Assembly: GCA_027021085.1 (NCBI GenBank)
Contig: JALUVB010000025.1
Span: 1-17,335, forward strand
Length of the DNA stretch: 17,335 nt
Direction: 5' to 3'
Source of the DNA: a bacterium
GTDB lineage: Bacteria; CAIJMQ01; JAADFP01
The notes beneath the pieces are model-generated. The model made no database searches, was not told the origin of the DNA, and saw only the letters and a list, made by a program, of their open reading frames with translations. Positions 2,330 through 16,919 of the stretch are shown piece by piece. Numbering within the stretch: position 1 is the first letter of the stretch; the number at the start of each line of letters is the position of its first letter. The position numbers were made by a program, and so were the translations under genes.

Positions 2330-3406
2330 ATGGCTGTATGGGCGAAGTATGCGGACGGCGTGGAAGTTTCTGACAGTGTATTTAAGGTGCTGGCAAAATT
2401 TGCTCCTTCGGGAACACTTGATGTTTTTGCCTCGGACCAACACAATTCCTACCTGAAACTTATGAATTCCTTCTACAAGCATATTGGCGTGGACAAGGAG
2501 GCTACCAATGATGATGTTAGAGAAGTCTGCCGGGTATTTGCCCGGGCATTAAACGGAGCAAGCACGGCAGTTCTCTTTAATCACCTGGCTTTCAAGAGTG
2601 CGGGATTTCGTGATTTATTGGGCAAAGATGTTCTCCTTATAGGCAGGCTCGAGGATACTAATGCGGTCAAGATTGACGGTGGCAGAGGCCATTTGGCCCG
2701 GCTGGCTGTACAACCAGAAGAGGTGGCGGATGATGTGGATGGTTTTAAAACGCTGGTTAAGCTTGACCCGGAGCATAAGGAGAGCTGGGAAGAAAACCTT
2801 AACTGGTTGAAAGATGTTTACGAAAGGTGCCGCAAACTGGGAAAGCCTTTATTCAACGAGACTTTAATCTTCCAGCGTCCCGGCGAATCCAAGGTGGAAA
2901 TGGCGGAAAGATTGCCTGATGGGTTGATAGAAATGGCAAAAGCTTTCAGCCCCTATGGGGACTTCTATAAAACCCAGGTGCCTTTTCTCTGGGTGGATGA
3001 TGGGGGGAGAGTGGTTCCGGCCAGTAAACCCCTGGAAATCCGCAGATGCGCTGAAGAGATGGCCAGAGTATCAGCCAGGCCTATGCTTCTTTTGAGTGCC
3101 GCAGTGGATTTTTCCCAGTATTCAGCCCAGTATGCACTCGTATGTGATATCTTTGCCGGTCCCATGTGTGGCAGAGCCTACTTCAAAGAAGCTTTCACTG
3201 ACCCGGCTACAAAAGACCTGGAGACACTGGCGGGAAGTTTCAAACGTATCGCATTGCCCCGTATCAAGCAGATAAAAGACCTTGCCGAAGTAGTTAGTCC
3301 CCCCTGGTGGCATAAGTACGAGTGGGTCTCCGAAGAGGCAAAACCCATGATTTCCGGGGCAGGGGCTGAGCTAAAGCCCGGCGTAAAGGCTGATTTCGGC
3401 TACTGA
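2330..3406 (+). CDS. LacD-type class I aldolase (tagatose/fructose-bisphosphate aldolase-like)
   Basis: A 358-residue TIM-barrel aldolase of the LacD family (tagatose-1,6-bisphosphate aldolase and relatives, including sulfosugar-phosphate aldolases). Recognisable blocks are FASDQHNS (33-40), matching the LacD 'DQRGS' strand; TLVKLDPEHKE (141-151); the strand YGDFYKTQVPF (209-219), whose Lys214 is the likely Schiff-base lysine; and LLLSAAVDF followed by CGRAYFKEAF, the C-terminal phosphate-binding region. A strong AAGGAGG site lies 6 bases before ATG. Phosphofructokinase downstream and phosphoglycerate kinase at the right edge suggest it may act as the glycolytic/gluconeogenic aldolase. That role, and the true substrate, are inference. 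Confidence 0.75.
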   Translation: MAVWAKYADGVEVSDSVFKVLAKFAPSGTLDVFASDQHNSYLKLMNSFYKHIGVDKEATNDDVREVCRVFARALNGASTAVLFNHLAFKSAGFRDLLGKDVLLIGRLEDTNAVKIDGGRGHLARLAVQPEEVADDVDGFKTLVKLDPEHKESWEENLNWLKDVYERCRKLGKPLFNETLIFQRPGESKVEMAERLPDGLIEMAKAFSPYGDFYKTQVPFLWVDDGGRVVPASKPLEIRRCAEEMARVSARPMLLLSAAVDFSQYSAQYALVCDIFAGPMCGRAYFKEAFTDPATKDLETLAGSFKRIALPRIKQIKDLAEVVSPPWWHKYEWVSEEAKPMISGAGAELKPGVKADFGY

Positions 3407-5637: not shown

Positions 5638-7491
5638 ATGACTACTTCGCTGAAAAAAGAGCTGGGTTTTCTGGGGGTTTTCTCCATTGCTTCCGGGGCT
5701 ATGATAAGCTCAGGACTCTTTGTCCTGCCTTCCCTTGCCTATGCTAAAGCTGGGGCCGGGGTAGTCTTTGCTTATATCCTGGCCGGAATATTTGTCCTCC
5801 CTGCCATGTTAAGCAAGGCAGAGCTTTCCACTGCCATGCCCAAGGCAGGAGGCACCTATTTCTTTATAGACAGAAGTTTAGGTCCTCCCATGGGGACCCT
5901 GGGAGGTCTCTCCAACTGGTTTTCCCTGAGCCTAAAGAGTGCCTTTGCGCTTATCGGGCTGGGGGTGTTCTTTGAATTATTGATGCCCGGTATATCCTAT
6001 TCCCAGGTAAAAATAATAGCTTCTGTATTTTTATTTTTCTTCATCTTTTTGAATATTGTAGGAGTAAAGGAAACCGGAAGAGCCCAGGTCTGGATGGTCT
6101 TAATTTTATTAGGATTGCTTATCTTTTACTGTATAGGAGGGTTAGCAAAAATAAAGGTAGAGAGATACTCTCCGTTGCTACCGGAGAATATAGGGGTGCT
6201 ATTTTCCACCGCGGGATTTGTCTTTATCTCCTATGGAGGGCTTACTCAGATAGCCAGCGTGGCAGAAGAGGTGAAAAATCCGGGAAAAACTCTTCCCCTG
6301 GCCATGATTACCTCCTGGCTTGTGGTAGGGTTACTTTACGCAGGAGTTGTATTTGTTACGGTAGGTTTACTGGAGCCGAAGGTTTTCCTCTCTTCCCATA
6401 CGCCCATTTCCTCAGGGGCAAAGGTGTTTGCCGGTATGCCGGGATTAGTGCTTCTTTCCCTGGGGGGTATTCTTGCCTTCATATCCACCGCAAATGCAGG
6501 GATTCTCTCTGCCTCTCGCAGCCCCATGGCCATGGCCAGGGATAATCTTGTTCCCCCCTTTTTTAGTCGGATAAATCCAAAATTTGGCACACCTCATTAC
6601 TCCATAATTTTTACCGGCTTGTTCATTCTTATGGTAATTGTATTCTTAGACCTGGAACACCTGGTGGAAGTTGCCTCAGCTCTTATGATTCTTCTCTTTG
6701 TTCTGGAAAATGTTGCGGTGATTGTAATGCGGGAAAGTAAAATACCCAACTATCGTCCCCTCTTTAAATCACCTTTTTATCCCTGGATACAAATCCTGGG
6801 GATTATCGGGCCACTTTTTTTACTTTTTAAATTTGGTTTCTTGCCCCTTCTGATAACTACGATTTTCCTGCTGGGAGGATTGGCCTGGTATGGTATTTAT
6901 GCCCGTCCCCGGGTAAGCAGGGAATCCGGGTTGACGTATATTGTGCAGAGACTCCTTTCCCGGCATCTTTCCCGGGGTATTTTGAGAAAAGAGCTGAGGG
7001 AAATAATCAGGGAAAGAGATGCAACTATTGAGGATAGATTTGATAAATTATCACACGAATGTCCCATACTTGATCTTGAGAAAAGTATTTCGCTTGACGA
7101 TTTTTTCAGAAAAGTTTCTGAGATTCTAAGTAAAAGAATAAACCTGGATAAAGATGTAATTTACAAGCTGCTCTGGGAAAGAGAACGGGAATCTTCCACA
7201 GTGATTATTCCTGGATTGGCTATTCCCCATATTGTAGTCCCGGGAGAGAAAAAATTTGAGATGGTTCTGGCGCGTTGCAGAGAAGGCATTAGATTTGAAG
7301 GGGAAGTTACTCCTGTCTATACAGTATTTGTTTTAGCCGGGACACGTGATGAACGAAACTTCCACCTCAAGGCACTGGCAGCAATAGCCCAGATTGCCCA
7401 GGATAAGGAATTTGAGAAAAAATGGAATGAAGCAAAAAACGTTGATGAGTTAAGAGATGCGGTACTTCTGGCCGAAAGAAGAAGAGAGTGA
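5638..7491 (+). CDS. APC-family amino-acid permease fused to a C-terminal PTS EIIA (PtsN-like) domain
   Basis: 617 residues. Residues about 8-420 form a polytopic membrane domain of roughly 12 segments with APC superfamily landmarks: FSIASGAMISSGLF near the N-terminus, PKAGGTYFF (68-76), and VAEEVKNPGKTLP (208-220). After a basic linker (about 425-470), residues 475-617 match PTS EIIA type 2: GLAIPHI with the phosphorylatable-type His531, and NFHLKALAAIAQ with His576. The architecture suggests transport tuned by a phosphorylated EIIA domain, but no EI/HPr genes are here. Substrate is unknown; an amino acid or polyamine is likely. No good Shine-Dalgarno precedes ATG 5638, but the N-terminus fits the family start. 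Confidence 0.87.
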   Translation: MTTSLKKELGFLGVFSIASGAMISSGLFVLPSLAYAKAGAGVVFAYILAGIFVLPAMLSKAELSTAMPKAGGTYFFIDRSLGPPMGTLGGLSNWFSLSLKSAFALIGLGVFFELLMPGISYSQVKIIASVFLFFFIFLNIVGVKETGRAQVWMVLILLGLLIFYCIGGLAKIKVERYSPLLPENIGVLFSTAGFVFISYGGLTQIASVAEEVKNPGKTLPLAMITSWLVVGLLYAGVVFVTVGLLEPKVFLSSHTPISSGAKVFAGMPGLVLLSLGGILAFISTANAGILSASRSPMAMARDNLVPPFFSRINPKFGTPHYSIIFTGLFILMVIVFLDLEHLVEVASALMILLFVLENVAVIVMRESKIPNYRPLFKSPFYPWIQILGIIGPLFLLFKFGFLPLLITTIFLLGGLAWYGIYARPRVSRESGLTYIVQRLLSRHLSRGILRKELREIIRERDATIEDRFDKLSHECPILDLEKSISLDDFFRKVSEILSKRINLDKDVIYKLLWERERESSTVIIPGLAIPHIVVPGEKKFEMVLARCREGIRFEGEVTPVYTVFVLAGTRDERNFHLKALAAIAQIAQDKEFEKKWNEAKNVDELRDAVLLAERRRE

Positions 7492-7614
7492 TTTATCAGG
7501 ACTTTGGGATGTAGAGCCTGGACATTTATCTTGGGAGAGTTGTTGGTTGCGAGTTATTAGTTGCCAGTTCCGCCTGTGCCTCCGCCTATATACGGGGAGA
7601 GTTGTGAGTCCCTC

Positions 7615-7658
7615 CCGATGTCCATCGGTCCCGGCGCATGCCGGGGCACCTATGCCCC
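7615..7658. repeat. cluster of three small perfect hairpins
   Basis: Hairpin 1 is CCGATG(7615-7620)/CATCGG(7623-7628) with a 2-base loop. Hairpin 2 is CCCGGC(7630-7635)/GCCGGG(7640-7645) with loop GCAT. Hairpin 3 is GGGGCA(7643-7648)/TGCCCC(7653-7658) with loop CCTA. Hairpins 2 and 3 share three bases and cannot both fully form. No U-run follows, so this is not a standard terminator. Confidence 0.65.
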
Positions 7659-7663
7659 CATGT

Positions 7664-7696
7664 TAGACTATAGACCGTAGACTTTAGACATTAGAC
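7664..7696 (+). repeat. TAGAC short tandem tract, copy A
   Basis: Five TAGAC units spaced 7 or 8 bases apart (TAGACTATAGACC..., then TAGACTTTAGAC...). It matches the tract at 16762-16794 at 30 of 33 positions in direct orientation. Confidence 0.75.
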
Positions 7697-7783
7697 GGGA
7701 AAGACACATGATACGCGGGACCAACTCACTATTTACTATCTTCCCTCACTACTATCTACCCGTTACTCACTACTTTTCTGGAT

Positions 7784-7970
7784 TCATGCTTCCGCAGGCA
7801 TGACAGGTGAACTGGTTACTTATCATTCTTGCAAATCCTAACATCCCTCAAAAGTTAATCCCAGGATACCAGGATTACCAAGATACCAGGGTACCAACCA
7901 TCTGTTCACTATTCACTGCTCACTGTTCACTATTTACTGCTTACTATCCCCCCAGTCTACAGTCTAAATC
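7784..7970. repeat. modular intergenic repeat, copy 1
   Basis: The modules in order are a palindrome TCATGC/GCATGA running into GGCATGACAGGT (7797-7808), CCAGGATACCAGGATTACCA (7861-7880), a GTTCACT tract with CACTGTTCACTAT (7921-7933), a C-run, and an inverted TAGAC tract (7949-7968). Read on the minus strand, the same modules occur in the same order at 16781-16868, including an exact 20-base match between 7949-7968 and 16781-16800. Confidence 0.7.
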
Positions 7971-8052
7971 TTTCCCGGGCGGGTGAATTGAAGAATGCTG
8001 CTGCATTATGTTAAACTGCTCAAAGGACACTCAAGAATGCAGTCCTGTCATT

Positions 8053-8985
8053 ATGGATGAAAATACAATAATCTCCCGGATAGAAACAATTTTACCGGAT
8101 AAAAAGAACCCGGATGTGGTTGTGGGTATCGGGGATGATGCTGCAGTGGTAAGATGGAAAGATGGGTTACTTTTGTTTACCTGTGATGCTCTGGTAGAAG
8201 GCACTCATTTTCGCAGGGAGTATTTCCCGCTGTATAACTTAGGGTGGAAAGTTATGGCAGCCAGCGCAAGTGATATCTATTCCATGGGAGGAGTGCCTAA
8301 GTTTGCTTTGCTTTCCCTGGGTATTCCCGGAGGCAGGGAAAAGGAGATAGACGAGATTTATCGGGGAGTTAAAGATTTCTCTTCCCGTTTCCAGGTGATG
8401 GTGGTAGGAGGCAATCTTACCTTTTCCTCTTTCCTCTGGATTGAATCCACAGTTATAGGAGTGGCAGAGGAGCCAATTCTCCGGCGAGGAGCACAGGAAG
8501 GGGATTTAATCGTGGTGAGTGGATACCCGGGAGAAGCCCGGGCGGGGAGAGAATTACTGGAAAAAGGTATAAAGGGATACACGCATTTAAAGGAAAAGTT
8601 TCTTAAACCCTCCCCCAGAAAGGAAATACTCAAGATTGTAAAAGAAATGCAGGTAAGGGCTATGATAGATATAAGTGATGGAGTGGGAAAGGACCTTAAG
8701 AGGATATTGAAAGAGAGTAGAAAGGGTGCATTTCTAAAAAAGGATAAGTTTCCCATTTCTCCCGCTCTTAAGGATTTCAGCCCTGAGAAAGCTTTTCATT
8801 ATTTCTGGGGGGGAGGGGAGGACTACGAGATACTTTTTACTGTTCCTGAAGGGAGCCATCTCCCTCCCTCCATAGAAGGTGTTAATCTGACAGTTATTGG
8901 AAGGATAACAGGCAATGAGGGGGAAATCATCACTCCAGAGGGAAAATTAGAAGCGGAGGGGTTTGATCATTTTGCCCGGGTTTAA
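8053..8985 (+). CDS. thiL: thiamine-monophosphate kinase
   Basis: Phosphorylates thiamine monophosphate to the cofactor thiamine diphosphate with ATP. The PurM-like fold is visible in GIGDDAAVV (25-33), CDALVEGTHF (44-53), ASASDIYSMGG (70-80), VVGGNLT (117-123), MIDISDGVGKDL (204-215) and WGGGEDYEILF (252-262). The Asn in GGN replaces the Asp common in E. coli-type enzymes. Starting at ATG 8053 gives 310 residues with the usual family N-terminus. An in-frame ATG at 8008 would add 15 unconserved residues (MLNCSKDTQECSPVI). Neither has a strong Shine-Dalgarno. A weak promoter-like pair (TTGAAG 7988, TTAAAC 8011) favours the later start. tsaE follows after 3 bases, a neighbour pairing familiar from other bacteria. 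Confidence 0.93.
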   Translation: MDENTIISRIETILPDKKNPDVVVGIGDDAAVVRWKDGLLLFTCDALVEGTHFRREYFPLYNLGWKVMAASASDIYSMGGVPKFALLSLGIPGGREKEIDEIYRGVKDFSSRFQVMVVGGNLTFSSFLWIESTVIGVAEEPILRRGAQEGDLIVVSGYPGEARAGRELLEKGIKGYTHLKEKFLKPSPRKEILKIVKEMQVRAMIDISDGVGKDLKRILKESRKGAFLKKDKFPISPALKDFSPEKAFHYFWGGGEDYEILFTVPEGSHLPPSIEGVNLTVIGRITGNEGEIITPEGKLEAEGFDHFARV

Positions 8986-8988
8986 AAG

Positions 8989-9462
8989 ATGGAATCATTA
9001 GGCCGAAGTTGTATAACCCATTCCCCACAGGAGACTATTTCCCTGGGGGAAAAGTTGGGGAAGTGCCTGGAGGGAGGAGAATTCATTCTTCTCCGGGGAC
9101 CTCTGGGGGTAGGAAAGACAATCTTTGTAAAAGGGATTGCCAGGGGGTTGAAGGTGCCCTCTTCTGTGTATGTAAGGAGCCCTTCTTTTACTCTCCTCCA
9201 TATTTACCAGGGAAGGCTGCCTCTTTACCATTTTGATTTATTCAGAATGAAAAATGCAGGAGACCTGACAAGTATAGGGTGGGATGAATATTTAAGCGGG
9301 GAAGGGGTGGTGGTAGTAGAGTGGGGGGATAGATTCCCCGACTATCTGCCTTCCTACCTCAGCATAAAGCTCGATTTTGTAGAAAAAGATGACGAACGGA
9401 AAATTTTAGTGCAAAGCAGCGACAAGAGGTATGCATTGCTGATAGAAAGAATGTTTCCTTGA
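8989..9462 (+). CDS. tsaE: tRNA N6-threonylcarbamoyladenosine synthesis ATPase TsaE
   Basis: The P-loop ATPase that works with TsaB and TsaD to add threonylcarbamoyl to A37 of ANN-decoding tRNAs. The 157-residue protein has Walker A GPLGVGKT (37-44), SPSFTLLHIY (64-73, the family's SPTFT...Y block), LYHFDLFR (79-86) and VVVEWGDR (108-115, the IEW motif). It starts 3 bases after thiL with no clear ribosome site of its own, so coupling to thiL is likely. tsaB and tsaD, often next to it elsewhere, are absent here. Its stop codon TGA forms part of the next promoter's -35 box. Confidence 0.92.
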   Translation: MESLGRSCITHSPQETISLGEKLGKCLEGGEFILLRGPLGVGKTIFVKGIARGLKVPSSVYVRSPSFTLLHIYQGRLPLYHFDLFRMKNAGDLTSIGWDEYLSGEGVVVVEWGDRFPDYLPSYLSIKLDFVEKDDERKILVQSSDKRYALLIERMFP

Positions 9463-9487
9463 CAAAGAGGCATAATTTGTTAATAAT
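9459..9487 (+). promoter_or_regulatory. sigma-70-type promoter of the pilus ATPase gene
   Basis: A consensus -35 TTGACA (9459-9464) overlaps the tsaE stop. A 17-base spacer leads to -10 AATAAT (9482-9487, five of six). The pilus gene starts at 9514 behind AAGGAGA at 9502-9508. Confidence 0.7.
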
Positions 9488-9513
9488 TTAAAAAGTTTAA
9501 TAAGGAGATAGGA

Positions 9514-11199
9514 ATGGCCAAGAAAAGATTAGGGGAGATTTTGCTTGAAAGTGGGGTAATTGATGAGAAGCAGCTGCAAGAAGCTCTCAAAATTCAGAAG
9601 GAAAGAGGAGGATTACTGGGAGATGTCCTGGTTGCTCTCGGGTATGTGAGTGAGGATAGCCTGGCTAAATCTCTCAGTGAACATCTGGGGCTTAAGTTGG
9701 TGGACCCTCTTTCATACGATATTAATCCCGAAGTTCTTGCCATCGTTCCTGAGCAGGTAGCGAGGAAGTACAATCTTATTCCTCTGGACAAGGAAGGTAA
9801 CACTCTTTACGTAGCCATGTCAGACCCTTTAAATATTTACGCCATAGAGGAATTAAAGTCTCTTACGGGTTTGATAATTCGTCCCTACGTGAGTCCCCGC
9901 TATGCCATAAACCGTGCCATTGAGCAGTTATACGGCATCACGCAGAGCATGGAAGATGTATTGAAAACAGTGGACGAGGAAACACTCGGGTATGCAGTGG
10001 AACAGAGTGATACGGTGGACTTATTGCAGGAGATGGCGCAGGAGGCCCCGGTAATAAAAGCAGTCAATCTGCTTATTTCTCAGGGGATAAGAGAGAGAGC
10101 CAGCGATGTTCATATAGAACCGGAAGAAAGGGAAATAAGGGTAAGGTATCGAATCGATGGCATCCTTTACAAGGTGCAGTCATTGCCCAAGAAGTTGCAG
10201 CTGGGAATAATTTCCCGGATTAAGGTACTGGCTCATCTTAATATTGCAGAAAAAAGGTTACCTCAGGACGGAAGGGTAATCATGAAAATGGGCGATAGGG
10301 AAGTGGACTTGAGGATTTCCACTTTTCCCACTATTTACGGGGAAAACGTGGTAATTAGGATCCTGGAAAAAGAGGGCATTTTCAAGTCTATCGAGGAATT
10401 GGGGTTTTCAAAGGATACCCTGACTGCTTTCCAGTCACTTCTTCGTAAACCTTACGGGATGATACTGGTAACTGGCCCCACGGGAAGTGGTAAAACTACT
10501 ACTTTGTACTCAGCTCTTTCATTTATTAATGCCGTGGAGAAAAACATAATAACCATAGAGGACCCCGTGGAATACCAGATACGGGGTATAAGACAGACCC
10601 AGATTAATCCAAGAGTAGGCCTGAATTTTGCCAATGCTTTGAAGAATATTCTCAGGCAGGACCCGGATATTATCATGGTAGGAGAGATAAGGGACCTGGA
10701 TACGGCCAAGATTGCCGTGGAAGCAGCACTTACCGGGCACCTGGTATTTTCTACTCTTCATACCAACGATGCGCCCAGCAGTATCCCGCGCCTGGTGGAT
10801 ATGGGGGTGGAGCCTTATCTCCTCTCTTCCTGTCTTCTGGGTACCCTGGCACAAAGATTAGCCCGGGTAATCTGTCCTTACTGCAAGGAGGAACATTCCC
10901 CGCAGGATGATATGTTGCAGTTGATGGGAATAGAAAAAGGGACAAAATTATATCGGGGTAAGGGTTGTAAATTTTGCCGGAATACCGGATACATGGGCAG
11001 AATAGGGATTTTTGAGCTAATGGTAATGAATGATAAGCTGAGAGAGATTGCCTTGCGGAGAGTACCTGCCAGCGAGGTGAGAAAAGTATGTGTAAAGATG
11101 GGAATGAAAACCCTGCGTGAGGCCGGATTGGAAAAAGCTGTAGGAGGAGTAACTACCCTGGAAGAAATTCTTAGAGTCACCGAGGATGTAGAAGGTTAA
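9514..11199 (+). CDS. pilB: PilB/GspE-family pilus or secretion assembly ATPase with MshEN domain
   Basis: A hexameric cytoplasmic motor that drives pilin polymerisation. Residues 5-28 match the MshEN c-di-GMP-binding motif (RLG at 5-7, LL 10-11, G14, VI 15-16, L21, L25, Q28). After a five-residue spacer a second copy occupies 34-57, with Leu and His at its first and last positions in place of Arg and Gln. The ATPase core has Walker A GPTGSGKTT (321-329), Asp box TIEDPVEYQ (347-355), Walker B-type DIIMVGEIRD (385-394), and HLVFSTLHTND with its His box. A zinc tetracysteine CPYC (454-457) and CKFC (485-488) follows. At 561 residues it is full length. No retraction ATPase PilT accompanies it, so a PilB versus GspE name is partly convention. 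Confidence 0.94.
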   Translation: MAKKRLGEILLESGVIDEKQLQEALKIQKERGGLLGDVLVALGYVSEDSLAKSLSEHLGLKLVDPLSYDINPEVLAIVPEQVARKYNLIPLDKEGNTLYVAMSDPLNIYAIEELKSLTGLIIRPYVSPRYAINRAIEQLYGITQSMEDVLKTVDEETLGYAVEQSDTVDLLQEMAQEAPVIKAVNLLISQGIRERASDVHIEPEEREIRVRYRIDGILYKVQSLPKKLQLGIISRIKVLAHLNIAEKRLPQDGRVIMKMGDREVDLRISTFPTIYGENVVIRILEKEGIFKSIEELGFSKDTLTAFQSLLRKPYGMILVTGPTGSGKTTTLYSALSFINAVEKNIITIEDPVEYQIRGIRQTQINPRVGLNFANALKNILRQDPDIIMVGEIRDLDTAKIAVEAALTGHLVFSTLHTNDAPSSIPRLVDMGVEPYLLSSCLLGTLAQRLARVICPYCKEEHSPQDDMLQLMGIEKGTKLYRGKGCKFCRNTGYMGRIGIFELMVMNDKLREIALRRVPASEVRKVCVKMGMKTLREAGLEKAVGGVTTLEEILRVTEDVEG

Positions 11200-11201
11200 A
11201 A

Positions 11202-12425
11202 ATGCCCCAGTATAGATACAGAGCAAGGGATGTACGTGGCACCTCCATATCAGGGGTGATGGATGTCTCTGATATAAGAGAGCTGGAAAAAAGACTTAGC
11301 CAAAGAAAAATATATTTAATAGAGGCGAAAGAGGAAAAGGGAGGGGGGTTGCTCTCCAGGCAAATTACTCTCCCTTTCCTGAATAAAGTCAGAACTACGC
11401 ACCTGATATTATTCACCAGGCAGCTTACGGCAATGCTCAGAGCTGGTGTCCCCATAACCCAGGCCCTCAATACCCTGGCAGAACAGACAGAAAGCCAGGC
11501 ATTAAAAACGGCTATAAGAAAGATAAAGGAAGATATTGAACAGGGCTCTAACTTTGCAGATGCACTGGCAAGGCATCCAGATATCTTCTCCGAGTTGTAC
11601 ATCTCCACGGTTCGGGTAGGTGAAGAGACAGGAAGCATGGAAGAGATACTTGACCGTATAGCCACCTTCCTGGAAAGGGAGATGGACATAAGAAGCAAGG
11701 TAAAGGGTGCCTTAATTTACCCCGTGGTTTTGCTGGTAGTGGCTTCTGCCCTGATAATTTTCCTGGTAAGTTATGTTTTGCCAAAATTCAGGAAAGTTTT
11801 TTATACAGCAAGAGTTCCTCTGCCTCTGCCTACCCAGATTATGTTCAAGATAAGCGAGCTGTTTCAGCAGTACTGGTATATTTTTCTCCTGGTTGTTATA
11901 TTCCTGGCTGTAGGAATGCGCATGGTTTATCGCAGTAAGAGAGGTAGGTACATGATTGACCGCTGGAAGTTGAGAATGATTCTTATCGGCCCTCTATTAC
12001 GTAAGGTGGGAATTGCAAGGTTTGCCCGCTCTCTGGAAACGCTGGTGAGAAGCGGGGTGGATATGGCAAAGAGTTTCCTGGTGATAAAAGGTACACTGGG
12101 AAACGTGGTATTGGGAGAGGTAATGGACAAAGTAAGGGAAAACGTTATGCTGGGAGGGAGTATAAATGAGCCGTTGAGAAGGAGTAAGGAGTTTCCTCCC
12201 ATGGTGGCACATATGATATCCATAGGAGAAGAGACAGGAAATATGGATGACATGCTAAGGGAGATAGCGGAAAGTTACGACAAGGAAGTGGATTTTACCA
12301 TTAAAATACTTACCAGTATCCTGGAACCGCTCCTATTGGTGGTTATGGGGGGAATAGTGCTTTTCATTGCCCTATCTCTCTATTTACCCCTGTTCAGAAT
12401 GGCTAAAATTATACAGTACTATTGA
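11202..12425 (+). CDS. pilC: PilC/GspF-family inner-membrane platform protein
   Basis: The integral membrane partner of the assembly ATPase that orients pilins for polymerisation. Its 407 residues contain an N-terminal cytoplasmic domain (YRYRARD at 4-10), then two tandem T2SSF domains (about 67-190 and 270-393). The internal repeat shows as VGEETGSMEEIL (139-150) and IGEETGNMDDML (341-352). Membrane segments are near 170-192, 225-242 and 375-396. It begins 2 bases after pilB, so the two form one transcription unit. The last codon's TGA is embedded in the -35 of the pilin promoter. Confidence 0.94.
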   Translation: MPQYRYRARDVRGTSISGVMDVSDIRELEKRLSQRKIYLIEAKEEKGGGLLSRQITLPFLNKVRTTHLILFTRQLTAMLRAGVPITQALNTLAEQTESQALKTAIRKIKEDIEQGSNFADALARHPDIFSELYISTVRVGEETGSMEEILDRIATFLEREMDIRSKVKGALIYPVVLLVVASALIIFLVSYVLPKFRKVFYTARVPLPLPTQIMFKISELFQQYWYIFLLVVIFLAVGMRMVYRSKRGRYMIDRWKLRMILIGPLLRKVGIARFARSLETLVRSGVDMAKSFLVIKGTLGNVVLGEVMDKVRENVMLGGSINEPLRRSKEFPPMVAHMISIGEETGNMDDMLREIAESYDKEVDFTIKILTSILEPLLLVVMGGIVLFIALSLYLPLFRMAKIIQYY

Positions 12426-12450
12426 AATTTTCCTAAAACTATGGTATCTT
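12422..12450 (+). promoter_or_regulatory. extended -10 promoter upstream of the first pilin
   Basis: A -35 TTGAAA (12422-12427) overlaps the pilC stop. A 17-base spacer leads to TATCTT (12445-12450), preceded by TGG, an extended -10 (TGn) element that compensates for the weaker hexamer. It would give the major pilin its own transcript with a leader of about 145 bases. Confidence 0.55.
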
Positions 12451-12600
12451 TTGTTAGTTAGGCTCGAAAGGAGGTGATGCTTTAAGCGGTAAGTTTTTGG
12501 GACGAGGCTTTGGTAGCTGTGGAGAAGGTTAAGTGAAGTATATAGATGGGGAGTTGGAACGATGATCTTGTTTTTGGGTATGAATAAGGAGGATTGAGAG
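12451..12600 (+). promoter_or_regulatory. long pilin leader with a strong SD-like site and possible mini-ORFs
   Basis: The stretch GAAAGGAGGTGAT (12466-12478) is fully complementary to the 3' end of typical bacterial 16S rRNA, yet the only nearby starts give a two-codon frame (ATG CTT TAA, 12477-12485). A second small frame, ATG 12562 to TGA 12597 (11 codons), has GGGGAG 8 bases upstream and ends 3 bases before the pilin start. It also overlaps the pilin's AAGGAGGA site. No known riboswitch consensus is apparent. Function is unproven; leader regulation or a ribosome standby site are possibilities. Confidence 0.4.
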
Positions 12601-13095
12601 ATGAAGAAGATGATACACTTCTGGAGAAACATGAAAAAAGGGTTTACCCTAATGGAGTTAATGATTGTGGTAGCAGTGTTAGCTATCCTTGCTGCCATAC
12701 TCATTCCCAACTTTCGTGGTATAACTGCGGATGCCAAGAATTCCACTGCCAAGGCTGACCTGAGAAACCTTAAGATGGCAGTGATTTTGTATCAAAACCA
12801 GTTCAACGTCCTTCCGGATGATTCCAGTTCTGCCAAGTTCGAAGAATCTTTGCAGAATTATTCACCCCGGGTAGTGGATAGGGTTCCGGTAGACCCCTGG
12901 TCCCCTTCCGGAGCAAAGTACCAGTATGACGTAGCGCCTGATGGTACTACCTTTGGTATCTGGAGTGTAGGACAGGATGGAACCAGTGAGACCACTATTA
13001 CTGACGATACCTGTACCTTTGCTGCTAATGCTGATGATATAGTAGCTACCAATGCTAAAACTATTAGTGGGTCTACATCTGGCGGCGTAATATAA
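12601..13095 (+). CDS. GspG-like type IV (pseudo)pilin, first of four; probable major pilin
   Basis: 164 residues with a 14-residue prepilin leader ending MKKG, cleaved before Phe15 (FTLMELMIVV). Glu5 and Pro22 of the mature N-terminal helix are both present. The C-terminal half has the GspG-type loop: VPVDPW (95-100), SVGQDG (122-127) and NADDIV (143-148), a region that binds calcium in known GspG proteins. It has one cysteine (Cys138), so no internal disulfide. AAGGAGGA, 7 bases upstream, supports ATG 12601; an alternative ATG at 12631 would leave a shorter leader. A dedicated promoter upstream and a terminator directly downstream suggest it is the abundant subunit. Confidence 0.92.
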   Translation: MKKMIHFWRNMKKGFTLMELMIVVAVLAILAAILIPNFRGITADAKNSTAKADLRNLKMAVILYQNQFNVLPDDSSSAKFEESLQNYSPRVVDRVPVDPWSPSGAKYQYDVAPDGTTFGIWSVGQDGTSETTITDDTCTFAANADDIVATNAKTISGSTSGGVI

Positions 13096-13102
13096 TTTTG
13101 CA

Positions 13103-13127
13103 GGGGGGCCTAGCCCCCCTTTCTTTT
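13103..13127 (+). terminator. intrinsic terminator between pilins 1 and 2
   Basis: A perfect 7-bp stem GGGGGGC (13103-13109)/GCCCCCC (13113-13119) with loop CTA is followed by TTTCTTTT (13120-13127). It lies 8 bases after the first pilin's stop. Read-through would be needed to express the six downstream genes, unless they have promoters I cannot see. It may act as a partial terminator setting the major:minor pilin ratio. Confidence 0.75.
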
Positions 13128-13147
13128 ACTTTTGGGAGGTTAAATAG

Positions 13148-13615
13148 ATGAAGAAGCATGGATTTACCCTGATGGAGTTGATGATTGTGGTAAGTGTGCT
13201 GGGAATTCTTGCCGCTATTCTCATACCCAATTTCAGGGGAGTGACGGAAGAAGCAAAAAATGCTGCTGCCAAGGCAGATTTGAGAAACCTTAAAATGGCA
13301 ATTATCCTGTATCAATCGCGCTATAATGTTCTTCCGGATGATTCCAGTTCTGCCAAGTTCGAAGAATCTTTGCAGAGTTATTCACCCCGTATAGTAGATA
13401 GGGTTCCGGTAGACCCCTGGTCTCCTACCGGAGCAAAGTACCAGTTTGAGGTGGCGCCTGATAATTCTACGTACGCCGTATGGAGTGTAGGAAAAAATGG
13501 AAGCAAAAATTTCACTCTGGGTAGTGATACCCTGACTTTTTCTGCCAATGCTGACGATATAGTAGGAACAAATGCCAAAGATATAGTAGGTTCCACCTCC
13601 GGTGGGATAATTTAA
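13148..13615 (+). CDS. GspG-like pilin, second copy
   Basis: 155 residues, a close paralogue of the first pilin. A five-residue leader MKKHG precedes FTLMELMIVV; Glu5 and Pro22 are kept. It shares FEESLQ(S)YSPR, VDRVPVDPWSP (83-93), GAKYQ, ANADDIV and the end GSTSGGII with the first copy. Differences concentrate in the variable stretch around residues 103-132, and it has no cysteine. The DNA of its middle is almost identical to the first gene's while the flanks differ. A GGGAGG site 8 bases before ATG is good. It lies just after the terminator. Confidence 0.9.
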   Translation: MKKHGFTLMELMIVVSVLGILAAILIPNFRGVTEEAKNAAAKADLRNLKMAIILYQSRYNVLPDDSSSAKFEESLQSYSPRIVDRVPVDPWSPTGAKYQFEVAPDNSTYAVWSVGKNGSKNFTLGSDTLTFSANADDIVGTNAKDIVGSTSGGII

Positions 13616-13628
13616 GCCAGGTCGAGAT

Positions 13629-14060
13629 ATGCGTGGATTTACTCTTTTGGAGTTAATGATTGTCGTGGCTGTGCTGGGCATACTGGCGGCAGTATTGATA
13701 CTGAATTTACAGGGAATCAGCGGCGATGCCAAGACCTCGGTGGCAAAATCCGACTTGAGGACGCTGAAGACGGCTGTTGTACTTTACGAAAGTCATTTTA
13801 ATGCACTTCCTCCCCAAAGTTACTGGGAGAAGGCATTGCAGGAAGATGAGCCGCGGATTATAGACAGGGTGCCGGCAGACCCTTACAACCAGCAGGGAGG
13901 GAAGTATATCTACAAGTTGAATACTGATGCCCCGGCAGGAAAAACCTATGTGGTTTTGAGTGTGGGGAAGAATGGTAAAGATGACACCCAGGTTTTTTAC
14001 GATAGGGTAATTAAGGGAAGTGATGATTACCTTGTTACCAATGCCAGGAGAATAGAGTGA
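13629..14060 (+). CDS. GspG-like pilin, third copy (divergent)
   Basis: 143 residues with an extremely short leader, MRG, before FTLLELMIVV. An in-frame stop at 13608 and no other start codon exclude a longer one. Glu5 is present but mature position 22 is Leu, not Pro. The loop region is altered: VPADPYNQQG (81-90) replaces VPVDPWSP. SVGKNG (111-116) and a DDYLVTNAR end keep the GspG plan. No close Shine-Dalgarno is visible and it sits 13 bases after the second pilin. A minor or specialised subunit is likely. Confidence 0.88.
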   Translation: MRGFTLLELMIVVAVLGILAAVLILNLQGISGDAKTSVAKSDLRTLKTAVVLYESHFNALPPQSYWEKALQEDEPRIIDRVPADPYNQQGGKYIYKLNTDAPAGKTYVVLSVGKNGKDDTQVFYDRVIKGSDDYLVTNARRIE

Positions 14061-14491
14061 ATAAAAAGGGATTTACTATCCTGGAACTCCTTATCGTTAT
14101 TGGCGTAGTAGGTATATTAGCCGCAGTAAGCATTATAAACCTCACAGGGGTGAAGCCCGAAGCTATAAGGGCAAAAGTAATGGCAGATTTGCGAAGCATC
14201 GAAGCTGCCGTATTAACCTACGAAGCCAGGCACTACGTTTTTCCCCCGGTAAATGGCTTTGAGAGTTACCTCCAGAATGATACTCCTCGTTTGCTGGATA
14301 GGGTTCCGGTAGACCCCTGGTCTCCTACTAAGGCCAAGTACCAGTATGACCTGGATACTACCACCACTCCTGGTACTTACCTGATTTTGAGTGTAGGACC
14401 TGATGGCTCCCGTACTGCTACAGTGGGGAACGATGTGGTAAACAATGTGGGGGATGATGTGGTAGTTACTAATGCCCGTCAGATTCAGTAA
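14057..14491 (+). CDS. GspG-like pilin, fourth copy
   Basis: 144 residues starting at a GTG codon that overlaps the third pilin's stop (GTGA), with AGGAG 6 bases before it. The leader MNKKG precedes FTILELLIVI; Glu5 is kept and mature position 22 is Ile instead of Pro. VDPWSPT (85-91), KYQYD (94-98) and SVGPDG (112-117) follow the first two copies closely, and its DNA shares a 32-base block with the second. A hypervariable run of threonines lies at 101-104. Translational coupling to copy 3 suggests equal amounts of the two proteins. Confidence 0.9.
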   Translation: MNKKGFTILELLIVIGVVGILAAVSIINLTGVKPEAIRAKVMADLRSIEAAVLTYEARHYVFPPVNGFESYLQNDTPRLLDRVPVDPWSPTKAKYQYDLDTTTTPGTYLILSVGPDGSRTATVGNDVVNNVGDDVVVTNARQIQ

Positions 14492-14550
14492 GAACCCTTC
14501 TATCAACAGGGCGGGGATAATGCCCAAGTTATACCGGGGAAGATTTGTTA

Positions 14551-14955
14551 ATGCGGATGCTGAATAATCAAAAAGGTTTTGGGTTGGTAGAATGTATTCT
14601 TTCTATTTTCATCATTTCCATTGCTTTTGTAGCCATGGTGGATATGTTCAATGTTGCGGCAAGCTTTAATAAACGTGCTAAAAGCTGGGCGATTGCCCAG
14701 AGTCTGCTCCAGGAGGGGATGGAGGGAGTAAAGAACAGGGGATATGGCTGGTTAACCGAGGATTGGAGTGATACTGATTTAACTTTGACAGTGCCTGACG
14801 GTTTTCCTCTCAAAGAAAGTAAAGTACACTGGAACTGGGTATCTGATGGGGGAAATCCGCAGGCTTACAAAGAAGTAGAAGTAAGCATTAAGTGGTACGG
14901 AGAAAATGTAACCAGGGAGTTAAAGGCAGTGACCTATCTGAGTGAACATGAATGA
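14551..14955 (+). CDS. PilV/GspI-like minor pilin
   Basis: 134 residues with prepilin leader MRMLNNQKG and mature start FGLVECILSI, carrying Glu5. The hydrophobic helix continues IFIISIAFVAMVDMF, as in PilV/GspI proteins, and the remainder is a short beta-rich domain ending KAVTYLSEHE. ATG 14551 is chosen because GGGGAAG lies 8 bases upstream; an in-frame TTG at 14545 would add two residues. It belongs to the priming minor-pilin set with the next two genes. Conservation outside the N-terminus is too low for a firm name. Confidence 0.82.
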   Translation: MRMLNNQKGFGLVECILSIFIISIAFVAMVDMFNVAASFNKRAKSWAIAQSLLQEGMEGVKNRGYGWLTEDWSDTDLTLTVPDGFPLKESKVHWNWVSDGGNPQAYKEVEVSIKWYGENVTRELKAVTYLSEHE

Positions 14956-14975
14956 GGTATAACGGATAAGTAACA

Positions 14976-15539
14976 ATGCGTAATAAATTGCGGGGCTTTG
15001 CTTGCCCGGATTCCCGGGGAATAACTCTCCTGGAACTGATTATAACCATCACTATTTCCGTAGTACTATTGGGAGCCATGTTTCTTTCCTTTGTGATTGG
15101 ATTGAGACGATGGGAAGAAGCCAGTGTTAGCTCTTTACTTACCAGGAATGCTCTCTTTTCCCTGGATAAAATGACAAGGGAAATAAGGCAGGCAACTAAT
15201 TTGTATGAGGCAGAGCAGAATAAATTGACCATTGATGTTGATATTAATCCCCTGGATTCCCATACTTCACCGGAAAGAGTCAGTTATTACCTGGATGATC
15301 TGGATAATACCCTTCTTATGCGTAAAGTGTGGGGTGGGGGAGGAAGCCCGGATAAAATCCGGGTATTAACGGGTAACGTGTATAGCTTGGAATTTATCTA
15401 TAAGGATGGCAGTAATAGCACGCTTTCCTTTCCCGTGACTCTTTCTGAAGTAAGACTGGTAGAAATAAAATTGGTTTTGAGGGAGGATGGGAGAGAGTTT
15501 TCGCTTAGCAATTCAGCCTATTTAAGGAATATCCAATGA
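14976..15539 (+). CDS. PilW/GspJ-like minor pilin
   Basis: 187 residues. A 15-residue leader ends SRG, followed by ITLLELIITITISVVLLG with Glu5. The sequence LFSLDKMTREIRQATNLY (residues 66-83) resembles the GspJ/PilW block that follows the N-terminal helix. The C-terminal part is beta-rich (VRLVEIKLVLRED). It is preceded by PilV-like and followed, with a 4-bp overlap (ATGA), by a PilX-like gene: the usual V-W-X minor-pilin order. Confidence 0.83.
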   Translation: MRNKLRGFACPDSRGITLLELIITITISVVLLGAMFLSFVIGLRRWEEASVSSLLTRNALFSLDKMTREIRQATNLYEAEQNKLTIDVDINPLDSHTSPERVSYYLDDLDNTLLMRKVWGGGGSPDKIRVLTGNVYSLEFIYKDGSNSTLSFPVTLSEVRLVEIKLVLREDGREFSLSNSAYLRNIQ

Positions 15540-16759
15540 ACAAAAAAGGAATTATAGGCATCCTGGCTCTTTTTCTTATGCTGGTTCTGGTTCTGTTTGG
15601 CGCTGCTATTGCCCTGATTACCCGTGCGCATTACAAGAACATGGTGGATAAAGCCGATGGGGTTAAATCTTTATACCTTGCCGAGGCGGGGGTGGAAAGG
15701 GCTATATGGAAATTGAATAATGATGCAAGTTCCCAGGATACGGGTATATTGTATTCAGATGAACCGCTGGGAGATGGATATTATACAGTACAGACATTCC
15801 TGGACGGAGTGGATACGGATACCAGGATAACCATAATTTCTACTGGTTTCCTTAAGGGGGGCAGAGGCAGGAAAAGGGTTAAAGAGAAGGTTCTTATTCG
15901 CACTCTGGGGGCTATGAGTACCTTTAGCAAGTATGTCCTTTTCTGGGGAAATACTGATGGTGTAGGAAGTGTGGGTATTAATAACAGCGTGGATATAACC
16001 CGGGTAGGCAGTGCATCGGGAGATGTCTTTGCCAACGGGGATATCTCTATAAATCATGCTTCCCGCGTGGCACCGGGGCTGGTTTACTCTACGGGCAGCG
16101 TGAGTGGAGGGGGGATTTATACTCCGGGAGGAGTTCCCAATCCTGTTCCCCAATTCCCAAACTTGGATACTTCCTACTATGATAATAAACTAAGTATAGC
16201 GGGAACTCAGCCTCCGGGAAACTGGAGTCTAAAGGGAGCCACTTACAATTTAAATGGTTCTACTTTGTACGTAAATGGCAATGTTACCATCTGGACTATG
16301 GCTGAATTGATAGGGCCGGGAAGTATTGTGGCTACGGGAGATATAACGATTAGGAATATGTCTGATATCAGTAACGTTGAGCTGATAGCAGGTGGCAGCT
16401 TGAGAGTTGATAACGCAGTAAACATAGCAGGGGGAGATGTTCTCTATTCTTCCACAAACATTATTATCAGGAATTCAGCTTCAATAACAGGGAATCTCCT
16501 TTCCCCCGGGGACATTACCATTGAAAACAGTGCAGAAGTGAGAGGAATTGTTTACAGCGGGGGAAGTACCCAGCTGAGAAATTCTGCCCGTATTCAGGGA
16601 AGCATTATCTCGGATGAATTCTATGGTGGTACTATAATCAATGCAGTACATATCATCCATGATAATGCATATATCCCTTCTTCTCCCCCTCCCGGTCTGG
16701 GGGGAGGCAGTACTACTGAGGTCACTTCCCTTTCCTTCGAAGAACTCCCACTGGATTAG
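15536..16759 (+). CDS. PilX/GspK-like pilus protein with a bactofilin-like beta-solenoid domain
   Basis: 407 residues. The N-terminus has leader MNKKG then IIGILALFLMLVLVLFGAA, with no Glu at mature position 5, as in GspK-type proteins. The PilX_N-type element LYLAEAGVERAIWKL is at residues 46-60. From about 145 to 372 short beta repeats recur, each centred on a [N/D]-I-x-I-x-N-S-A type turn (GDITIRNMSDI 268-278, NIIIRNSASI 308-317, GDITIENSAEV 325-335, STQLRNSARI 344-353), followed by small-residue turns. This resembles bactofilin/polymer-forming solenoids and is much longer than a normal PilX. The tail is Gly/Pro/Ser-rich. It probably caps the minor-pilin tip complex. Confidence 0.82.
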   Translation: MNKKGIIGILALFLMLVLVLFGAAIALITRAHYKNMVDKADGVKSLYLAEAGVERAIWKLNNDASSQDTGILYSDEPLGDGYYTVQTFLDGVDTDTRITIISTGFLKGGRGRKRVKEKVLIRTLGAMSTFSKYVLFWGNTDGVGSVGINNSVDITRVGSASGDVFANGDISINHASRVAPGLVYSTGSVSGGGIYTPGGVPNPVPQFPNLDTSYYDNKLSIAGTQPPGNWSLKGATYNLNGSTLYVNGNVTIWTMAELIGPGSIVATGDITIRNMSDISNVELIAGGSLRVDNAVNIAGGDVLYSSTNIIIRNSASITGNLLSPGDITIENSAEVRGIVYSGGSTQLRNSARIQGSIISDEFYGGTIINAVHIIHDNAYIPSSPPPGLGGGSTTEVTSLSFEELPLD

Positions 16760-16761
16760 GC

Positions 16762-16794
16762 TAGACTATAGACCATAGACTTTAGACTGTAGAC
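16762..16794 (+). repeat. TAGAC short tandem tract, copy B
   Basis: Matches 7664-7696 at 30 of 33 positions in the same orientation. Its 3' part (16781-16800) is the exact reverse complement of 7949-7968. Confidence 0.75.
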
Positions 16795-16868
16795 TGGGGG
16801 ATAGTGAACAGTGAACAGTGAATTTCCCGCTATCTTAGTATCCTGGTTTTTTACCCACCTGTCATGCC
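16781..16868 (-). repeat. modular intergenic repeat, copy 2 (inverted)
   Basis: Contains the TAGAC end, a G-run, ATAGTGAACAGTG (16801-16813) with a further ACAGTGAA unit, a TTAGTATCCTGG segment matching the CCAGGATACC cluster, and ACCTGTCATGCC (16857-16868), the reverse complement of 7797-7808. Module order equals that of 7797-7968 read backwards. Confidence 0.7.
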
Positions 16869-16919
16869 TGGCGGGCTCCCGACCCCGATTTATTTCGGGG
16901 GAGCAGGAGGCGCCCAGGC
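16866..16919. terminator. large imperfect palindrome between convergent genes
   Basis: The inner stem is CCCCGA (16883-16888)/TCGGGG (16895-16900) with a 6-base loop. It extends through GCTC (16875-16878)/GAGC (16901-16904) after a 4-base bulge, with outer arms GCCTGG (16866-16871)/CCAGGC (16914-16919). It may serve as a bidirectional terminator for the pilus operon and pgk, although no U-run follows on the plus strand. It may alternatively be a mobile-type palindrome appended to the repeat. Confidence 0.5.

Follow-up and report, generated by a model that had tools for sequence, protein, structure and literature searches.

An ordered intergenic mosaic of REP-type hairpins and degenerate heptamer arrays, with oriented arrays at gene ends, in one sparsely sampled bacterial genus

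The intergenic spacers of the genome examined here carry a dispersed repeat in which REP-type hairpins and several degenerate heptamer arrays are joined in a preferred order. It has a countable grammar, occurs across the genus, has recently been copied in blocks, turns over between orthologous spacers, lies in one orientation near stop codons, and contains the ends of some genes. This is probably a multi-family intergenic mosaic repeat that is block-copied and recombined between spacers, with an orientation filter acting at gene ends.

The 17,335-nt window is contig C25 of a draft genome (G000) of 1.93 Mb in 307 contigs. The closest relative compared was a congener (G001; 84-87% identity to the window, genome 86% complete), followed by one genome of the same family and four of the same class. 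The genomes beyond these share only the domain, and the host lineage is therefore deep and poorly sampled. The sequence read comprised 0.69 Mb of the own genome (about 36%) and 0.45 Mb of G001 (about 30%), and module densities are inflated because some contigs had been picked for matches, with module P at 22 per Mb in unselected contigs vs 162 per Mb across all sequence read. A binning artefact was rejected, as module-rich and module-poor contigs overlap in composition.

On the canonical strand, module P is CCCA(GTCTANN)2-5, modules B, C and D are arrays of TTYACTR, CTACYCR and NAGTTGY, respectively, E is of the CCAGGATACC type, and F/G is a hairpin. The degenerate heptamer families of the mosaic are TAGACYN, YAGTRAA, YGRGTAG and NAGTTGY. 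The first of the two spacers follows a gene (5638-7491) whose product is an amino acid permease with a PTS EIIA-2 domain fused at its C terminus. It carries module D (7534-7571, + strand) and two adjoining small palindromes, CCGATGTCCATCGG and CCCGGCGCATGCCGGG (7615-7645, no strand), both also found together with module D in further clusters. A five-unit P array lies on the - strand at 7664-7696, reading as TAGAC on the + strand, in the sense direction of the permease gene. Next come short heptamers of B and of a CTACYCR-like kind (C) (7725-7775, +). A 144-bp stretch, 7628-7771, has 96.5% identity to part of another contig (C35, L072). A degenerate CGTC/TGTC-tagged REP hairpin (TGTCATGCCTGC-GGAA-...; 7780-7804, -) is followed by what remains of a second hairpin head facing the opposite way (TATCATTCTTGCAAATCC; 7821-7838, +), module E with CCAGGATACC (7861-7897, +), six TTYACTR units of module B (7905-7946, +) and a short P (CCCAGTCTACAGTCTAAA; 7950-7968, +). 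The second spacer holds a five-unit P array (16762-16794, -) that begins 2 nt past the stop codon at 16757-16759, module B with the sense reading YAGTRAA (16801-16823, -), a short reverse-strand remnant of E (AGTATCCTGG; 16837-16846, -) and one half of a REP hairpin with a TGTC tag (ACCTGTCATGCCTGG; 16857-16871, +).

All of the features named for these spacers in the initial annotation, which described them as a modular repeat in two inverted copies, were found. Reverse-complementing 7949-7968 gives 16781-16800 without a mismatch (repeat pair I10, 20 nt), 22 of 23 positions match between 7911-7933 and 16801-16823, and GGCATGACAGGT at 7797-7808 has its complement, ACCTGTCATGCC, at 16858-16869. 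The TAGAC tracts at 7664-7696 and 16762-16794 are 89% identical in direct orientation, the former falling outside the start (7784) given in that annotation. The partial copy reported before asd also stands and consists of partial modules E (233-253, +) and B (262-303, +), in which 234-253 shares 90% identity with 7861-7880 and the 18-mer at 286-303 is exactly complementary to 16799-16816. Elsewhere in the window, positions 2330-3406 encode a 358-aa protein in a central-metabolism neighbourhood with a weak, below-cutoff match to DeoC/LacD aldolases. Four type IV pilin-like genes stand in tandem at 12601-14491, the first two having in common a 300-bp block of 80% identity, 520 bp apart, and this suggests an array of pilin paralogues.

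The order of the modules, one ground on which a dispersed repeat had been proposed, is conserved, and such a repeat is supported. Adjacent modules share a strand in 216 cases and differ in 55, E precedes B in 30:0 and B precedes P in 53:1. At least 68 module clusters were found in the 0.69 Mb read of the own genome. The two spacers are thus two of many mosaics whose modules combine in many ways, not two inverted copies of one element. No single bounded element can be drawn, because clusters mix modules, the borders of shared blocks lie inside arrays or hairpins, and orthologous spacers differ.

The genome-wide pattern TAGACNNTAGACNNTAGAC, which represents TAGAC heptamer triplets, gave 165+163 overlapping matches in the 1.93 Mb of the own genome, with none for the reversed control, and 85+68 matches in G001. 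The 7-nt period was confined to spacers, where recurrence of 5-mers at distance 7 was 196 per 10^4 positions vs 17.2 in coding sequence; at distances 7, 14, 21 and 28 the spacers exceeded the coding rate 11, 9, 4 and 2.7 times. Chance is ruled out genome-wide by the TAGACNNTAGACNNTAGAC counts and this periodicity. Ordinary microsatellites produced by replication slippage would also consist of head-to-tail heptamers, and arrays of TAGAC heptamers do occur in many phyla. However, adjacent GTCTANN units in the own genome were identical in 0/159 cases against 26.4 expected, the opposite of what slippage predicts, though this absence stems partly from the position-specific linkers of the five-unit form. 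Only nine of the sixteen possible linker dinucleotides were used in the own genome, and neighbours never shared one (0/159). Adjacent B units were identical in 17/266 cases vs 37 expected. Array length argues against slippage as well, since P arrays have a preferred unit number, peaking at five units (34 arrays) besides the two-unit pieces (45). Slippage was rejected on the 0/159 identical neighbours and is the least credible of the origins considered.

Inside the arrays a 4-nt core is constant in interior units (AGAC 98-100%; GTAG 43/43, on the other strand) and the linkers are variable; T is the least kept base of the P core (89%, vs 98-100% for AGAC). Invariant cores and the preference of P for five units are what an array bound at the DNA level would show, with a nucleoid or other protein reading a 4-nt core every 7 bp. 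Yet 7 bp is out of helical phase, the four cores are unrelated, and orientation follows the neighbouring gene and not the chromosome, neighbouring clusters agreeing in 12/26 and 14/28 cases. Such a binding array, which the initial annotation had raised in its nucleoid form, is very improbable. Replication strand and GC skew were also considered and showed a weak link or none.

Recent block copying is evident from blocks of 100-250 bp, 90-96% identical, that are shared between unrelated spacers. Their ends vary with no constant boundary and fall in heptamer arrays or hairpins, where alignments tend to stop anyway. Turnover was apparent on comparison with G001. Its spacer orthologous to that before thiL has arrays and a hairpin but a different set of modules, its spacer before asd has no modules, neither B nor E, and in its spacer after the pilin-cluster gene the P array again comes first but the offset differs. 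Among 20 comparable spacers, modules were present in both species in 11, only in G001 in three, only in the own genome in two and in neither in four, while genes beside differing spacers stay about 85% identical between the two genomes. No copying event was seen between near-identical strains. Under the mosaic reading, the mosaics would be built by joining, in a preferred order, REP hairpins of the CGTC type, short linkers and a number of degenerate heptamer arrays, and would spread and turn over as blocks are copied and recombined from spacer to spacer, breaking within shared arrays. Recombination, not a transposase, would then be the mover of the blocks.

In a search demanding near-complementarity, 36 and 39 hairpins with an AT-first 8-bp stem and a 4-nt loop were found, with loops of the GNAA type in 36/36 and 37/39, and in a search without that requirement the stems were seen to keep pairing via compensatory changes. 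Stem sequences are mainly ATGCCTGC, ATTCCTGC and ATACCTGC, with ATTCCCGC in a minority. Like CGTC-tagged REP family 1 (PMC3733652), these hairpins have a CGTC/TGTC head, an 8-bp stem starting with AT, a 4-nt loop and a CCA-like tail and have no linked or dedicated transposase, but here they sit within heptamer mosaics. Opposing F/G pairs are seen too and may correspond to the head-to-head dimers that make up most of that family.

The initial annotation had raised a non-autonomous mobile element as one possibility. A MITE or REP-type element that a Y1/IS200-family transposase mobilizes in trans by recognizing the hairpin would accord with the two PF01797 matches in the own genome, with the agreement of the hairpin with the CGTC-REP description and with the opposing hairpins that flank some clusters. 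However, G001 has the mosaic but gave no PF01797 match in its 86% complete genome, neither of the two transposase genes has hairpins on both sides, and CGTC REPs have been reported without a dedicated transposase (PMC3733652). Nor do the ends fit. Terminal inverted repeats with a target-site duplication were not found, and the spacers in which presence and absence differ between the congeners (few of them informative, at about 85% identity) showed sequence replaced without clean or constant ends and no target-site duplications. Transposase-driven movement is thus doubtful, if the strongest of the alternatives. Beyond the 3' end of one 226-aa Y1-transposase-like ORF in the own genome (G000 C45:626-1306; L122, L345), at a distance of about 370-460 bp, lie a REP hairpin and a B array; the other flank examined has neither.

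The arrays are also oriented at gene ends. Of the tandem spacers, 73 have the canonical strand antisense to their genes and 20 have it sense; the bias is concentrated where a module sits no more than 15 nt from the stop (42:3) and is gone (23:15) once the distance exceeds 60 nt. For this reason, Rho polarity is unlikely as the sole cause. Over all genes, arrays from -25 to +30 nt of the stop were in the stop-rich-strand orientation in 75:5, a bias that is partly circular for arrays overlapping gene ends because a stop-less array would be read through in ORF calling; the circularity does not touch arrays beginning 0-15 nt past the stop, where the ratio was 31:2. Judged from their sequence, the five wrong-way cases look like spurious ORFs reading through the repeat.

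A strong sense bias with stops close by could indicate a 3'-UTR RNA element, the arrays and hairpin acting in the transcript past the stop through decay, termination or a bound protein, and the GNAA tetraloops, the compensatory stem changes and the constancy of the AGAC and GTAG cores beside variable linkers are consistent with this. The structured RNA suggested in the initial annotation is supported for the small REP-type hairpin and weakly for whole copies, whose folding exceeds that of shuffled sequences by a modest margin (z -2.5 and -1.6). Against a 3'-UTR role are this modest folding, the lack of strand bias of the hairpin (6:6 and 6:9), the lack of an Rfam match in the window and the differing module content of orthologous genes, and the role is considered unlikely.

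The arrays themselves are rich in stop codons on the mRNA strand. The stop density of B and C is 0.21-0.23 in sense and 0.000-0.027 in antisense, against a background of 0.05. All three frames are closed on the mRNA strand by 78/79 B, 19/19 C and 68/87 P arrays of at least 19 nt, and on the opposite strand by 0/79, 0/19 and 30/87, respectively. As 7 = 1 mod 3, three units shut all three frames, and an array can therefore terminate a gene in any frame. Some genes do stop inside an array, at the first, second or third unit, and the last residues of genes ending in arrays are often unlike those of the orthologue, giving species-specific C-terminal tails.

It is improbable, though conceivable, that the arrays are kept as all-frame translation stop cassettes, the mosaic buffering genes against recombination at their 3' ends; if so, three units would close every frame however a gene end is cut or joined. 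Stronger conservation of TAG near stops was rejected (0.870 near vs 0.880 far), and the weaker keeping of T in the P core (89%) likewise counts against a stop filter. The heptamers of Xanthomonas and Nostoc (GGGAATC, GGGGAYT) occupy the coding strand, no more than 50 nt from stops (PMC4692102), and the published GGGAATC unit, by our reading, contains no stop codon. As GGGAATC shows a similar coding-strand preference, such a bias does not in general require a stop filter, and with TAG kept equally near and far the arrays are not called a stop device. The sense strand is G-rich and C-poor (G 0.264, C 0.130), and an effect of this on transcription is as possible a cause of the bias. Under the mosaic reading, insertions or joins beside gene ends would survive almost only when nearly every heptamer has a stop codon on the mRNA strand, and the orientation rule would be a selective filter, acting through translation or through transcription of the G-rich, C-poor strand, rather than a dedicated function.

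As far as sampled, the ordered mosaic is limited to one genus. A joint B-P composite was found in 2/193 genomes searched, the own genome and its congener, and was absent outside the genus. The period of seven reaches further in other sequences, as same-class genomes (G003/G006; L302, L286, L289, L278, L298) carry different degenerate heptamer arrays, e.g. TCTGANN and ACAGANN. At 80 loci in other phyla from a TAGAC scan, arrays near stops were sense vs antisense in 26:18, which is not significant, and other heptamers there contained stop codons in 20 vs 17 +/- 2 expected, also not significant.

Among known systems, the NIME of Neisseria, in which dRS3, ATTCCC(N8)GGGAAT, alternates with RS repeats of 30-160 bp (PMC3898611), is similarly an intergenic mosaic of a small palindrome and several short repeat families whose spacer content varies among relatives. 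The partners of the palindrome here are instead degenerate heptamer arrays, the lineage is unrelated, and no alternation of dRS3 with RS repeats was found. The mosaic works like a NIME array but is not filed as one because most hairpins fail the dRS3 definition, the full pattern being matched only by the minority with the ATTCCCGC stem. The Xanthomonas and Nostoc heptamers are likewise intergenic, with a preferred unit number and a coding-strand position near stop codons; here there are several families per genome, degenerate, with a stop in most units and not of G-quadruplex type. The intergenic TAACTGA heptamers of Beggiatoaceae, whose stop codons were noted as restricting overlap with coding ends (PMC4679880), are one sequence mostly just upstream of starts, whereas here several ordered sequences lie mostly after stops. 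The four-unit heptanucleotide elements of Geobacter metallireducens are also multicopy with few heptamers, but the portion of the source consulted (PMC2700814) gives one sequence, GGGACCG, and reports no mosaic.

The repeat thus belongs to a known, poorly understood kind of bacterial repeat. What is new is the union of REP hairpins and intergenic heptamers, two classes described separately, in one ordered mosaic, together with the 75:5 orientation of arrays around stops and the genes that end inside arrays. The rules of orientation at stop codons and of no identical neighbours are sharp and countable, and both make the question of why a period of seven is so frequent in bacterial spacers testable with strain-level genomes.
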